Origin: Acidimicrobiia bacterium
Lineage (GTDB): Bacteria > Acidobacteriota > Terriglobia > Bryobacterales > Bryobacteraceae
Direction of reading: 5' to 3'
NCBI GenBank assembly: GCA_016871315.1
Contig: VFZE01000001.1
Location: forward strand, 186,001 to 250,000
DNA length: 64,000 nucleotides
In this document: positions 6,820-12,509 of the stretch, piece by piece
Layout: each line of letters opens with the position of its first letter
Numbering within the stretch: position 1 is the first letter of the stretch
Made by a program: the position numbers and the translations under genes
Notes under the pieces: model-generated
The model's input: only the letters and a program-made list of their open reading frames with translations
Told to the model about the DNA's origin: nothing
The model's database searches: none

Positions 6820-7718
6820 GCGCGGGGCTGGCGCCATTTTTTCCAGAGCATCTCCATAGCCATGGGGAGCGATTGGGTGCATTCCCGGAAGAAACGGGGG
6901 AAGCGGAGGGGGTTGTACCAGGCTCCCATTGCCAGCGTGAGGGCGTACTTGATGAGGGAGGGTTGGGAGTGCTCGTAGAAGCCGTCTTTGCGATCGAGGA
7001 TGTGGCCGGCGTAGCCGTATAACCAGTTGAGCGGGACGTAGCCGCGGTGGCGTTTGGTGATTTGGACGACTTCACGGAAGGTCTCGACGCGGCGGCCGAG
7101 GGTTTTGTTGTCGGCATACATGCGGGAGGTTGCCAGGTACTCGTCGATCTTGAGCATGCGGTGGCGCTGCGAGATGCGGAGCCAGAGGTCGTAGTCGAGC
7201 GTGAGATGGAGCTTGGTGTCCATCATGCCGGCTTCCGCGAAAACGGCGGAGCGGATGAAGGAGGCCGGCTGGCAGATGTAGCAGAGGCTGCCGAGCTGGC
7301 CGTAGTCATAGGGGTCGGTGGGGTAGCGGCGGATGATGCTGCCGTCCTCGCGGACATACCAGGCTTCACCGTAAACAACGCCTACGCTTGGTTCGGCTTC
7401 GAGGCGGCTGACGGCGGAGGAGATGGCGCCCGGAAGATAGGTGTCGTCGGCGTTCAGGTAGGCGAAGATCTCTCCGCGCGCCATCCGGAAGCCCTTGTTG
7501 ATGGCATCGGCCTGCCCATCGTCCTTTTCCGAGATCCAGCGCAGCCGGTGTTCGTGGCGGCGCAGCAGATCTTGCGTGCCGTCGGTGGAGCCGCCGTCGA
7601 CGACGATGTAGTCGATGTGAGGATAATCCTGCGACAGGACGCTTTCGATGGTCTCTTCGAGAAATCGCGCCATGTTGAAAGACGGCGTGACAATGGTGAC
7701 AAGGGGAAGCGGGCTCAA
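6816..7718 (-). CDS. GT2-family glycosyltransferase
   Basis: Cytoplasmic-face inverting glycosyltransferase with a GT-A fold. TIVTPSFNMARFLEETIESV (residues 8-27), VDGGSTDGT (40-48) and the nucleotide/metal DXD-like motif YLNADD (87-92) are all present. The C-terminal third holds amphipathic and short hydrophobic segments but no full transmembrane anchor. The start is TTG at 7718, overlapping the stop of the upstream hypothetical gene by four bases (TTGA), which implies translational coupling. It is not near the large polysaccharide locus; acceptor and sugar are unknown. Confidence 0.85.
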   Translation of the reverse strand: MSPLPLVTIVTPSFNMARFLEETIESVLSQDYPHIDYIVVDGGSTDGTQDLLRRHEHRLRWISEKDDGQADAINKGFRMARGEIFAYLNADDTYLPGAISSAVSRLEAEPSVGVVYGEAWYVREDGSIIRRYPTDPYDYGQLGSLCYICQPASFIRSAVFAEAGMMDTKLHLTLDYDLWLRISQRHRMLKIDEYLATSRMYADNKTLGRRVETFREVVQITKRHRGYVPLNWLYGYAGHILDRKDGFYEHSQPSLIKYALTLAMGAWYNPLRFPRFFRECTQSLPMAMEMLWKKWRQPRA

Positions 7719-8494
7719 TTCTTTTTCCCGGGCAGGTAGGAGAAGTCCCAGATTTGCGTGTTGCCCTTGCCTTCGGTGTATTCGATCACGGCGTATTCGC
7801 CGGGCTCGATCGGCTTCTGCGGCCAGATCTTGTACAGACCGTCAGCCACCTGGTGGCGGAAGATCTCCACAGGGGTGTTTTCCTGAAGGAGCTCCTTGGA
7901 TACGGGAATCATGCTCCATTTCTCGACGATACGGGCATCTTTCTCCACCTTGAGCTTGACGATGCCGAAGCGCTCGGGCAGCGCCAGGCGGAAGTAGAAC
8001 TCGGGGCGTTCCTGAGTGACGGTGAGCGGAGCGGTGACGCCGTCGAGTTCAAGTGTGGCTTTGCCGCTGACGATGGGGATGGGCGAGATGGCTTTGAGGA
8101 TGGAGCGTTTCTTGTTGGTGACGACCTTGGATTCGGCCTGCTTGAGCGGGACGAGCTGCTCGCCATTGACCCAGAAGACGCCGATTTCGTAGGGCACGCG
8201 GGAGACTTCATTAGCGGCTTCGCGTTCGGCGCGGTCTTCGGCGGCGAGGGCGGCTTGGTTGGCCTTGCGGTCAGCCTCGACTTCGGCCTGCTCGGCGCGG
8301 GTGCGCTTGAGGTCGATCAAGTCGAGCGGGATGGCCTCCCATTCGCTGCGCTCGACGCTGTAGAATTTGACACGGTCCTCGAGCACTTCGTACTCGCGGA
8401 CCCGCTGATAGGTGCCGTCCTTGAGATAGAGGCGGATCACCGCCCCGGGGAGGAACTGGCACATCAGCATCAGGATGAACAACAACCGGAACAT
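7715..8494 (-). CDS. Exported hypothetical protein
   Basis: The 259-residue protein begins with a hydrophobic signal segment (MFRLLFILMLMCQFLPGAV). A short beta-rich stretch follows (RLYLKDGTYQRVREYEV), then a charged coiled-coil region (about 60-100: RTRAEQAEVEADRKANQAAL), then a beta domain to the end. The region before the coiled coil resembles domains in which a secreted protein describes a path or parameter table, but I do not recognise a named family. The start ATG at 8494 begins the signal peptide; in-frame ATGs further upstream fall next to the group II intron end. It is coupled by a TTGA overlap to the GT2 gene. Confidence 0.65.
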   Translation of the reverse strand: MFRLLFILMLMCQFLPGAVIRLYLKDGTYQRVREYEVLEDRVKFYSVERSEWEAIPLDLIDLKRTRAEQAEVEADRKANQAALAAEDRAEREAANEVSRVPYEIGVFWVNGEQLVPLKQAESKVVTNKKRSILKAISPIPIVSGKATLELDGVTAPLTVTQERPEFYFRLALPERFGIVKLKVEKDARIVEKWSMIPVSKELLQENTPVEIFRHQVADGLYKIWPQKPIEPGEYAVIEYTEGKGNTQIWDFSYLPGKKN

Positions 8495-8529
8495 GGCTAA
8501 CTGTCTTGATTGTACCTTTGGAATAAACA

Positions 8530-8992
8530 TAGGTAGGCGGTCGCCCGCTTTCCCTGTCACACCACCCGGCGTTCGGGTCCGTACCGGGCGGTTCGGCGGG
8601 TTGAGCTATCGGCCGCCAGTCAATCTCGGAATCCCAAGCGAGTCGAAATAGGCATTGGGCAGGGCAATCGCCAGCGCCGGGCTGTTCGCCAGCCTCCACG
8701 GGCCGTGGGCGCTCCCTGCCGTTTGGGCGGCAAGGTCTTTACCCACTCCCCGCTTCCGCAATTCGGCGAATCCCACCGTTCCACGCTTCCACTGCTTCCA
8801 AATCGCAGACCGAAGCCTGCGCCGGAGCCACTGCTCCAAGGCCTCCAACACCGAAGGAGTTTGACACCTTCCGAAATAGCCGGTCCAGCCCCGAAGATAG
8901 CGGGACAGTTCCTTTTACGCCCTCTGCTGACTTCCTCCATCAGGTTGTCAAAGGGACTTTCACCCTCGAACTGTCGAACATGCTCGGCACAC
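8530..8992 (-). mobile_element. Internally deleted group II intron (both RNA ends retained)
   Basis: On the minus strand the element begins GTGTG (8992-8988), the group II 5' consensus, followed by domain I-like sequence containing GGGTGAAAGTCCC. It ends with a domain V hairpin whose arms are 8584-8592 and 8561-8569 (9 pairs, one G-U) and a domain VI hairpin finishing CCTACCTAT at about 8530. Between them only the last ~100 codons of the maturase remain. A full intron would be about 2 kb, so roughly three quarters has been lost from the middle. The 5' end sits three bases after the T-tract of the TonB-receptor terminator. Insertion behind terminator hairpins is known for class C group II introns; I cannot assign the class from this remnant. 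Confidence 0.8.
8606..8914 (-). pseudogene. Group II intron reverse transcriptase/maturase, C-terminal remnant
   Basis: In-frame remnant of the intron-encoded protein. It reads ELSRYLRGWTGYF near its start, then RRRLRSAIWKQWKRG and ELRKRGVGKDLAAQTAGSA, and ends PNAYFDSLGIPRL before a TAG. These are the maturase (domain X) and C-terminal signatures of bacterial LtrA-like proteins. The reverse-transcriptase domain with YADD is absent, and an in-frame TAA lies just upstream at 8915-8917, where the maturase sequence joins intron 5' RNA sequence. It cannot act as a reverse transcriptase. Confidence 0.85.
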
Positions 8993-8995
8993 AGG

Positions 8996-9026
8996 AAAAA
9001 GCCCGCCTGGGGGCGCCAGGCGGGCT
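8996..9026 (-). terminator. Rho-independent terminator of the TonB receptor gene
   Basis: Read on the minus strand, an 11-base-pair perfect stem (9026-9016 with 9010-9000) closes a 5-base loop and is followed by TTTTT (9000-8996). It starts 16 bases after the receptor stop codon. The group II intron is inserted immediately beyond it. Confidence 0.9.
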
Positions 9027-9041
9027 ATGTGAGGCTATGGG

Positions 9042-12000
9042 TTAGAAGCTGTAACGCAGGCTCAGCTGCACGTTGCGCTCACTGCTCTTAGAGGTGACCT
9101 TGCCGAAAGTGGCGCTGCGCGGATTGGTGTCGGCGCCGCCCCAGTTCGGGTGGTTCGGGAGGTTGAAGAACTCGGCGCGGAATTGCAGGGCGTGCGTTTC
9201 CGCGATGGCGAAGTCCTTGAACAAGGCAGCATTCCAGTTTTGGAAGCCAACGTTGTGGAAGGGCAGGCTGTTGCGGTTCTGATTGCCGAAGGTGCCTGCG
9301 GCGGGGATGGTGAAGATATCGGCGCCGCCGGAGGTCTTGGGCTGGAACCAGAAGTTGGAGTCGGTGCGGCCTTCAGAGAAGGCGCGCTGGCCGCGGGAAA
9401 GCGAGGCGTCGCCGTTCACGTTCCAGGGTTTGCCGTCAGAGGAGCCGATGCCGGGGAAGTCATCTCCGGTGCCAATGGTGATGGGGGTGCCAGTCTGGAA
9501 TTGTGCGACACCGGTGATCTGCCAGCCGCCGAGCAGCTTACCGGCAAGCTCGGAGTTGCCACGCAGGAAGGGCAGCTCGTAGATGAAGTTGAGGACCGCG
9601 ACGTGGCGCGTGTCGAAGCCGGACTTGCCCCAGAAATTTGTGGCATCGTAGGCGTCGAACAAGCGGTCACGGCGTCCGCTGGCGTTGTCTTCGCTCTGGG
9701 ACAGAGTGTAAGCGAAGTTGTAGCTGAAGCCGCGCGAGAAGCGGCGGTTCACTTCGATCTGCAGTCCGTTATAGATGCTGCGGGCGGCGTTCTCATTCAT
9801 GGGAATGAAGGCGAAGCCCTTGTATGGCCGCAGTGCGTTGACGTTCACGCCGGGGTTGCGTTGCAGGGTGCCCGTCTGAAGCTGATTCAGTTCGCGCTCG
9901 CGCTCCAGGTAGAGACCGGTCCGGCCGACGTAACCAACCTCGACAGTGGTGTCGAAGCCGATTTCGCGCTGGAAGGTGACGCTCCAGTTATAGGCGGTGG
10001 GGATCTTGAAGACGGGATCCTGCGTCATGAAGAACTGCGGGAAGGCGACACGGGCGCCGCCGCCGGGGTTGTCGGCCTGGCCGTTGGCGATCGACACCAT
10101 CGGCTGGAACGGCGGGTTGCCGCCCAGGAAGATGTTGTCGGAGACGCCGGGCCGGGACATGAAGCGTCCGAAACCGGTGCGGATGACGGACTTGGAGTTG
10201 ATGGAGTAGGCGAGTCCGATGCGAGGCTGGAAGTTCATCTTTTGGGTTTCGCCGTAATAGACGCTGCCGCCATTGAACAGGTTGTTGAACTCGCCGGAGT
10301 CGGCGATGGCGACGCGGCCCTTGGCGGCATCGGGGAAGCCGGTGCCGGGGATGACGACGCCGTTGAAACGATCGCCGCTGAGGATGTTGCCGGTGCGGGG
10401 ATCGAGCACGGCGGCCTTGGAGGGATCGTACTTGCGGGGATCGAAGACGGCGATGTTGCCCCAGAGGCTCTTGTAGTAGGGGTTCATGTAGGTCCAGCGC
10501 AGGCCGAGTTCGACCTTGAGGTTTTGGGTGGCTTTCCAGGAGTCCTGCACGAAGAGCTCAAAGGTGTGGCTGCGGTAGGGCGTGAAGGCGCGCTGACCGA
10601 TTTCGGCATAAGTGTCAAACAGGCCGAGGGCGGCGTTGGCGATGGCCACGCTGGTGGTTTGCGCGCCGGCGCGGACGTCGGAGAAGACGAAGCGGCCGTT
10701 CTGGTTGTTGGTGCCGCCGGGCACGCCGGTGACGTTGATCTGGTCAAAGTCGTTCTGGCCGAGACGCTCGAAAGCGGCGCCGAACTTGACTGTGTGATTG
10801 CCACGGATCATTGTCGTGTTGTTGGCGAAGTTGTAGATGGGGCCGGAGCTGAAGGCCGGGTACGGGCCGCCGTCCATGGTGCCGAAGTTGGCGATCTGGA
10901 TCGTGGGGATCTTGTCGAAGATCTCCTTGCGCTCAGGGAAGATGTAGGGGTAGCTGATCCCGTAGCGGGAACGCTCAAACCGGCCGCCTTCGCGGAAGAT
11001 GCCGATGAAGACGCGGTCGACCGAGGCCGAGCCGGTGAACTCGTTGATGACGGTCGGCGAAATGGTGAAGATGTGGTTGATGGAAGCGGTCTTGTTGGGG
11101 CGCGACCAGTCGGTCACGGCACGGTCAAACCCGCTGCGGAAGGCGTCGACCGAGGTCCAGCCGTACTGCTGGAAGCGCCACCGGAAGGTGTGCTTTTCGG
11201 TGGGCATGAAGTCGAGCGAGATGGTGTCCTTGCGCTGATCTTGCGGGCTGGGGCGGACCTGAAGGAAGTTGTTGGTTCCTTGCAGGAAGCCTGGAGTGGG
11301 CTCGGGATAGGAGCGCAGGAAACCAAGACCATTGGCGCTGACACGGCTGGCGGGGATGATGTTGCCGGCAAACGGCTGACCGTTGGTGGGATCATTCACG
11401 ACGCGGACGCGGCCGAAGAAGGTGTTGCTGGCATTGAGCAGTTCGGAGAAGTTGCCCTGCCGCATGGCCAGCGAGGGAACAGTCTGGATGGAGTTCTGCT
11501 CGCGGCGGAATTTCACCCACTCCTGGCTCCAGAGGAAGAACAGCTTGTTCTTGTCGGTGTTCCACTTTTCCGGAATATACACGGGGCCGGAAATGTTGTA
11601 GCCGAACTGGTTGAACCGGCTGGCCTGACGTGGACTGCCGGCGCGATTCAGAGACCACGTGTTGGCATCCAGCTTGTCGTTGCGGAAATAGTCGTAGAAG
11701 GTGCCGTGGAAATCGCGCGAGCCGCTCTTGGTGACGAAGCGGATCTGACCACCGGCGGAGCGGCCGTATTCGGCGTTGTAGTTGGCGGTGAGGATTTGGA
11801 TTTCCTGGACGGTTTCAAGATCCGCAGTGCCGATGGAGGTGCCGTTGGCGCGTGTGCGGATGCCGACGGCGCCGTCATAGGTGATCAGCAGGTCTTGGGT
11901 GCGGCTGCCGTTGATCGATAAGCCGCCGGAGCTGAGTCCGAAGCTGAAGCCCTGCAGCGAACCGCCGCGGACGCCCGGCTTGAGCAGCGCGAGGAAGAGC

Positions 12001-12458
12001 GGGTTGCGGCCGTTGAGCATCATGTTCTTGATCTGGTCGCCGGTGACGAGTTTGCCGACGGTGGCCGTTTCCGACTGCACGGCGGCGATGGTGGCGGTTA
12101 CCTCAACGGTTTCGGCCACGGCGCCGACTTCGAGACTGGCGTTCAGGGTGGCGGAGATGTTCGGATCGAGCTTGTTGCCAGTGGATACGTAGCGCTTGAA
12201 TCCTGGGGCCTCGACGGTGACGGTGTAGAACCCCGGCGGGAGCGAAGCGGCGACGTAGTAGCCGGCCTCGTTGGAGCTGGTCTTACGCTCCAGGCCAGTG
12301 GCCTGGTTGCGAATGCTCACGTTTGCATTGGTAACGACAGCCCCGGAGGGATCTCTAACGAATCCGGAGATCTGCGCGGTGTCAGATTGCGAGAATGCCG
12401 TTCCGGCGAGCAGAAAGAGCCCGGCCAGCAAGGCGGCGAAAGACAACGTTTTCTTCAT
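9042..12458 (-). CDS. Oar-like TonB-dependent receptor with carboxypeptidase-regulatory N-terminal domain
   Basis: Very large outer-membrane beta-barrel (1138 residues) of the OmpA-related/Oar type that abounds in acidobacteria, thought to take up oligosaccharides or other large nutrients with TonB energy. In order: signal peptide (1-24, ending AGTAFSQ), carboxypeptidase-regulatory/CNA-B-like domain (about 28-110, ISGFVRDPSGAVVTNANVSI), plug domain (about 120-270, with AEYGRSAGGQIRFVTKSG), then the long barrel ending VQLSLRYSF, whose terminal Phe is the barrel-assembly signal. The start is ATG at 12458 with GAGGAG 9 bases upstream; the frame extends 15 codons further but without a site. It is monocistronic, with its own promoter and terminator. 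The cargo is unknown; a second, broken receptor of the same type lies at 56.2 kb. Confidence 0.9.
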   Translation of the reverse strand: MKKTLSFAALLAGLFLLAGTAFSQSDTAQISGFVRDPSGAVVTNANVSIRNQATGLERKTSSNEAGYYVAASLPPGFYTVTVEAPGFKRYVSTGNKLDPNISATLNASLEVGAVAETVEVTATIAAVQSETATVGKLVTGDQIKNMMLNGRNPLFLALLKPGVRGGSLQGFSFGLSSGGLSINGSRTQDLLITYDGAVGIRTRANGTSIGTADLETVQEIQILTANYNAEYGRSAGGQIRFVTKSGSRDFHGTFYDYFRNDKLDANTWSLNRAGSPRQASRFNQFGYNISGPVYIPEKWNTDKNKLFFLWSQEWVKFRREQNSIQTVPSLAMRQGNFSELLNASNTFFGRVRVVNDPTNGQPFAGNIIPASRVSANGLGFLRSYPEPTPGFLQGTNNFLQVRPSPQDQRKDTISLDFMPTEKHTFRWRFQQYGWTSVDAFRSGFDRAVTDWSRPNKTASINHIFTISPTVINEFTGSASVDRVFIGIFREGGRFERSRYGISYPYIFPERKEIFDKIPTIQIANFGTMDGGPYPAFSSGPIYNFANNTTMIRGNHTVKFGAAFERLGQNDFDQINVTGVPGGTNNQNGRFVFSDVRAGAQTTSVAIANAALGLFDTYAEIGQRAFTPYRSHTFELFVQDSWKATQNLKVELGLRWTYMNPYYKSLWGNIAVFDPRKYDPSKAAVLDPRTGNILSGDRFNGVVIPGTGFPDAAKGRVAIADSGEFNNLFNGGSVYYGETQKMNFQPRIGLAYSINSKSVIRTGFGRFMSRPGVSDNIFLGGNPPFQPMVSIANGQADNPGGGARVAFPQFFMTQDPVFKIPTAYNWSVTFQREIGFDTTVEVGYVGRTGLYLERERELNQLQTGTLQRNPGVNVNALRPYKGFAFIPMNENAARSIYNGLQIEVNRRFSRGFSYNFAYTLSQSEDNASGRRDRLFDAYDATNFWGKSGFDTRHVAVLNFIYELPFLRGNSELAGKLLGGWQITGVAQFQTGTPITIGTGDDFPGIGSSDGKPWNVNGDASLSRGQRAFSEGRTDSNFWFQPKTSGGADIFTIPAAGTFGNQNRNSLPFHNVGFQNWNAALFKDFAIAETHALQFRAEFFNLPNHPNWGGADTNPRSATFGKVTSKSSERNVQLSLRYSF

Positions 12459-12509
12459 TTGTGAAATCTCCTCGATGGGGGAAGCTGCTTTTGTAGACCC
12501 CATGGACCC

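Follow-up and report, generated by a model that had tools for sequence, protein, structure and literature searches.

According to the available text of PMC4424553, class C (IIC) group II introns insert at transcriptional terminators, and both this text and the accessible part of PMC4028801 describe the majority of group II intron copies in bacteria as truncated or inactivated. Thermosynechococcus elongatus harbors 17 mobile introns without an open reading frame (ORF) that have one breakpoint in common and have kept their ribozyme; in the text available for this system, the mobilization of ORF-less introns by the proteins of other introns is treated as a known phenomenon (PMC2882425).

The window analyzed here, by which we mean the whole stretch of 64,000 nucleotides, carries at positions 8523-8992 of its minus strand an internally deleted class C group II intron of 470 nt. 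Its assignment and boundaries follow from alignments to full introns of related genomes (L114 and L017), from a covariance model that places the 3' end, and from the aligned boundaries of relatives. We found no report of this element in the literature on reduced or ORF-less group II introns or on those of acidobacteria. On present evidence, it adds another dead copy to an intron type that is already known. With a probability of about 0.88, it is the dead fragment of a full class C intron that retrotransposed behind a terminator and then lost its middle in two deletions.

All features described in the following lie on the minus strand, and the names of the domains, as well as those features of class C introns for which no source is given, are general knowledge in the field. 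The full form of the intron in related genomes, represented by L114, is 1,888 nt long, slightly under the ~2 kb that a previous reading of the DNA letters (the sequence-only reading) had assumed for full-length relatives. Its protein, encoded by a maturase frame of 447 codons in L114, has the GsI-IIC reverse transcriptase (6ar1; E 1.1e-147) as its best solved relative. The pieces of the element are collinear with the full intron and 92-100% identical to it. Nucleotides 1-59 of the intron, the start of domain I, are present at 8934-8992 with 92-93% identity to full introns, and GTGTGCCGAGCATGT at 8992 fits the published class C 5' consensus GUNYGCCNRGCAUGG at 14 of 15 positions (available text of PMC4028801), which bears out the GTGTG 5' end that had been proposed. 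Adjoining it, and sharing one base with it (8934), is a 19-nt piece (8916-8934) that corresponds to nt 329-347 of the full intron; it is 100% identical to L017, agrees with L114 at 18 of 19 positions, and falls within the match of Rfam family RF01998 (D1-D4 region), which spans nt 295-371 of L114. At the second deletion junction, bases 8914-8915, visible as a gap between the pieces in the comparison with L017, align to neither side. The retained 3' part then runs from nt 1532 of L017 (about nt 1498 of L114) to the 3' end, and it comprises the last 101 codons and the stop codon of the maturase (8606-8911), domain V (8560-8594), and the domain VI hairpin (8531-8555).

What has been deleted, in the numbering of L017, are nt about 60-328 and nt 348 to about 1530. 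The first deletion (about 270 nt) removed most of domains I-III and, with them, the entire match to RF02001, which in L114 covers nt 85-255 with 130.4 bits; the loss of this region leaves the ribozyme core incomplete. The second deletion (about 1.15-1.2 kb) took the remainder of domain IV along with the initial ~346 codons of the 447 in the maturase frame of L114. Alignment and Rfam searches hence portray the element as homologous to the full intron and devoid of essential parts, which makes it a truncated copy by definition: neither the complete domains I-IV of a working class C intron nor the intact ribozyme of a non-autonomous mobile intron is left in it. The sequence-only reading had rightly placed the element on the minus strand, had seen that both RNA ends are kept while the middle is lost, and had not mistaken for a separate element a piece of an intron that continues elsewhere. 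Its length of 463 bp and its 3' end at 8530 need to be revised, as the end of the element lies 7 nt further on, at 8523, according to both the model and the alignment of relatives. It had also described the maturase remnant as fused to the 5' RNA part; both parts exist, but the 19-nt piece lies between them, and two deletions separate them.

For domains V and VI we used our own covariance model, built from 63 relatives with the element left out (99.1% of cells paired; covariation score 0.365 vs. 0.107 in shuffles). This model matches 8594-8523 with 79.1 bits (E 2.2e-20), and the next match in the window reaches 10.6 bits (E 0.43). The match and the pair counts in the 63 relatives delimit the two hairpins, whose existence had been suggested with the proviso that a covariance model should recognize them. 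Rfam reported no group II family over the window at its gathering score and, with loose limits, RF01998 only (15.3 bits, E 3.8). We set Rfam aside as a test for domains V and VI because it is too insensitive here: its domain V/VI family RF00029 does not list the full-length intron L114 at E values up to 5, with L109 and L119 scoring 46.8 and 40.5 bits, respectively. Rfam can consequently miss such intron remnants, and a lineage-specific model finds them.

Judged by the model and the aligned relatives, the 3' end of the element at 8523 reads CTACCTATGTTTAT, and a T follows outside. The element terminates in CCTATGTTTAT, as does L004; this agrees with its lineage, whose aligned members end in CCTATGTCGAT or variants, and not letter by letter with the 3' consensus CCUACYCGAU printed in the available text of PMC4028801. 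In the sub-lineage to which L114, L010, L011, L013, and others belong, CCTATGTCGAT or variants stand in place of the usual CCTATCCCGAT, and domain VI is shorter. The upper helix of domain V in the element contains an A·A mismatch (base 8573) in place of the A-U or G-C pair formed in all 63 relatives. We considered this mismatch as a proof of death and gave it less weight, since up to 6 of the 63 relatives break some other pair of the same helix; on its own, the A·A is weak evidence.

The gene upstream of the element (9042-12503) encodes a beta-barrel protein of the outer membrane, in which Pfam recognizes CarboxypepD_reg and Plug domains (PF25183 and PF13620). Its intrinsic terminator (9000-9026), a target of the type used by class C introns, consists of an 11-pair stem (9026-9000) followed by TTTTTCCT, after which the intron opens with GTGTG; it begins 3 nt past the T-tract. 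The terminator scan alone is weak evidence, with one terminator found vs. 0.8 expected in shuffles. The introns of relatives are likewise situated behind hairpins in most of the flanks compared (L073 and L074 are without an evident T-tract), and the position three bases past a terminator T-tract noted in the sequence-only reading is supported by the stem together with this repeated placement. Downstream of the element follows an ORF (7715-8494) whose protein has no Pfam match; its likely start codon, the ATG at 8494, is outside the element. No intron piece was detected near the orthologues of this gene in 19 of 19 relatives with loci (blastn, E 0.01; up to ~1.5 kb on each side), and the best score of model R1 in the same 19 loci was 11.5 bits (E 0.28). 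A sister genome carries the downstream gene (its protein is 67% identical) after a beta-barrel gene and a hairpin, with the intron absent. We refrain from presenting this locus as a proven empty site, as its barrel protein is only 28% identical and the identity of the exact site is not proven.

These data lend themselves to a simple scenario. A full-length class C intron would have retrotransposed just behind the terminator of the outer-membrane-protein gene, and the middle of the inserted intron would later have been lost by two deletions, with both ends surviving by chance. Descent from the 1,888-nt class C intron, the occurrence of two deletions, the site of insertion, and the lone presence in the assembly are shown by the data. 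That the insertion preceded the deletions is something we infer, since no genome with a full intron at exactly the site of the element was seen. Both losses were presumably ordinary DNA deletions, and the remaining RNA should be able neither to splice nor to move.

The assembly from which the window is taken (6.25 Mb, 166 contigs, 98% complete) contains, besides the element, one ~209-nt 5' stub and one 22-nt match, and nothing more of the intron. The stub (L002 1515-1723; G000:C30:57953-58161) belongs to the same intron family and stands behind another terminator. There is one D5/D6 in all among the best 150 of 4,834 candidates in this assembly. A search for RVT_1 at E 0.001, which was positive in 3 of 14 control genomes, gave no match; with just the last 101 of 447 codons in the element, the reverse transcriptase/maturase that a functional intron needs is consequently missing.

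Places spanning the first deletion junction were sought in three overlapping sets of genomes, where any genuine second copy would have come out at the top of the ranking. There were none in 151 relatives (matches in 46, on one side only; best 4 candidates per genome), none in 257 genomes of the order (76 match on one side only; best 3 candidates per genome), and none in 399 genomes drawn from the class (23 match on one side; best 2 candidates per genome). Viral contigs do not contain the 26-nt junction sequence in exact form, and among 288 loci it occurs in only nine records, all of the element's own genome. Matches were obtained to 89 of 72,556 plasmid records, none of which covers 80% or more of the element. 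Several copies with common breakpoints, the mark of a non-autonomous mobile intron, were thus encountered neither in the genomes nor in the viral contigs or loci, and the proposed inspection of the own genome for further copies of the same deletion form returned none.

Relatives provided 79 distinct intron 5' ends, a non-random collection seeded with the matches of the 151- and 257-genome searches (best 4 and best 3 candidates per genome, respectively) and with hand-picked stretches, from which 5' matches starting after nt 8 and stretches identical over the first 400 nt were dropped. Twelve of these introns are full-length, five are ORF-less, ten are both-ended deletions, and 52 are without a found 3' end, with 30 of the 79 having less than 2,100 nt of downstream sequence. 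Among the 49 with at least that much, the corresponding numbers are 12, 4, 5, and 28. Two of the ten both-ended deletions (L219 and L229) resemble ORF-less forms or derivatives of them. A both-ended copy even shorter than the element (L216; G029:C33:139430-139575, minus strand) measures ~146 nt and consists of nt 1-75, half of domain V, and domain VI. The 16 junctions present in 14 deleted copies are all at differing intron positions and none coincide, which is the pattern expected of decaying single copies. At the junctions of the element, one base is ambiguous at the first, and the best split of the second has three mismatches; in L114, the 7-base sequence GAAGTCA occurs close to either end of the first deletion, with an offset of two bases. 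Microhomology was dropped as a clue to the deletion mechanism, because the 0 to 11 equivalent breakpoints at the 16 junctions and the mean of 0.74 matching bases at random L114 breakpoints are not like-for-like measures, and several junctions align poorly.

Seven related genomes (L109, L105, L106, L121, L188, L274, and L275) possess an ORF-less class C intron, which is 620-624 nt long in L109, L275, and L121, and 740 nt in L188. Its nt 1-379 are as in the autonomous intron; then come a short common domain IV, still similar to the start of the autonomous ORF region, and D5/D6. The seven aligned copies share this architecture (82-92% identity among four), their flanks differ, and they lie behind hairpins. 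A 245-nt D4-D6 query of the ORF-less form was spanned at 10 places in 8 of 257 genomes; two of these eight (G053 and G292) are without a related maturase at E 1e-10, and the others have distant or broken ones only. With one common ORF deletion in at least seven genomes, this ~620-nt intron is likely a form mobilized in trans, and it is a better candidate for this lifestyle than the element. Immediately after the 3' end of one intron, another intron 5' end begins in L121 (at 1040) and in L060 (near 1715; on the contig that L112 also comes from), which looks as though the D6 hairpin of the preceding intron had stood in for a terminator as the target. Collectively, and more usefully than the single fragment, the relatives hold autonomous 1.9-kb introns, both-ended copies with differing deletions, and an ORF-less lineage with one common deletion, and the sharing of breakpoints can separate dead copies from those spreading in trans.

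Might the element itself be a non-autonomous intron, spliced and moved in a MITE-like manner by the maturase of another intron, as the sequence-only reading had envisaged? It keeps both ends, D5, and D6, trans-mobilized ORF-less introns are known (at least from the available text of PMC2882425), and related genomes do have an ORF-less lineage. We regard this idea as highly improbable, given that the domain I body and domains II-III are gone, that the ORF-less introns of this very family retain nt 1-379, unlike the element, and that the junction is unique, with neither a second copy nor an RVT_1 match in the assembly. The origin put forward for the element, an internally deleted class C intron with both ends behind a terminator, therefore stands, whereas the mobility attributed to it is unsupported. 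The deletions could also have arisen during retrotransposition, either because the intron RNA was itself deleted or because the reverse transcriptase jumped while copying it; in either case, the element would have been short from the moment it inserted. A trans-acting maturase would then have placed it once at the terminator site, and the both-ended deletions of the family would be by-products of retrotransposition, not of decay. The many such copies in relatives, and the lack of any known full intron at this position, are what this proposal has in its favor; we consider it unlikely all the same, as a lone copy requires no event of this kind and the junctions of the element bear no clear signature of one.

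The maturase remnant calls for a separate consideration, as its frame, 101 codons plus stop in the translation of 8606-8911 and thus in line with the ~100 codons first estimated, is open without inner stops. Its score against Pfam GIIM is 20.5 bits (cut-off 23), over profile positions 48-78 of 80 only. The median dN/dS of the remnant against 14 relatives is 0.11, and 0.13 among those relatives; five stop-bearing sequences and L239, the element's own second record, were left out of this set, which includes two deleted copies themselves (L181 and L117). With dS values of 0.58-1.05, these comparisons cover mostly the time before the deletion: as the nearest relatives are already at 0.58 or more, pairwise dN/dS is blind to what came after it. 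The frame being still open, the deletion is probably recent; an undecayed remnant fits a recent deletion, and it equally fits a retained function. Retention for use, either as a short maturase-like protein or as an RNA element ahead of the downstream gene, nevertheless strikes us as a very remote prospect. The low dN/dS that would speak for it is dominated by pre-deletion time, an in-frame ATG is absent and an in-frame TAA lies just upstream, no promoter-like match occurs in 8350-9150, and the folding of the whole element is ordinary (z -1.18; equaled or surpassed by 11 of 100 shuffles). There is similarly little reason to suspect that the element is a chimera of different introns created during assembly. 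With its 166 contigs, the assembly is indeed a draft, and the introns of relatives are often found at contig ends; this element, however, resides deep within a contig of 329,268 bases, and the only other intron piece in the assembly that could have been joined is the 5' stub. Decay of an inserted full-length intron into a dead fragment remains our preferred reading.

As a single fragment, the element is of minor importance, and it clearly illustrates the decay that class C introns undergo behind terminators. It is like the class C introns found behind terminators in the sequence of its 5' end and of D5/D6, in its maturase, and in its insertion at a terminator, and it differs from them in being 470 instead of 1,888 nt long, having lost the greater part of domains I-IV and of the protein. 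With the truncated and fragmentary bacterial copies, as portrayed in the available portions of PMC4424553, PMC4028801, and PMC3522654, it has in common that it is inactive, single, and without a full relative in the assembly; in contrast to these, it keeps both ends and has two internal deletions rather than the loss of one end. Like the ORF-less introns of T. elongatus, as far as the available text of PMC2882425 describes them, it has lost most of the protein gene and kept both ends, but unlike them, it is without the domain I body, and its junction is unique.
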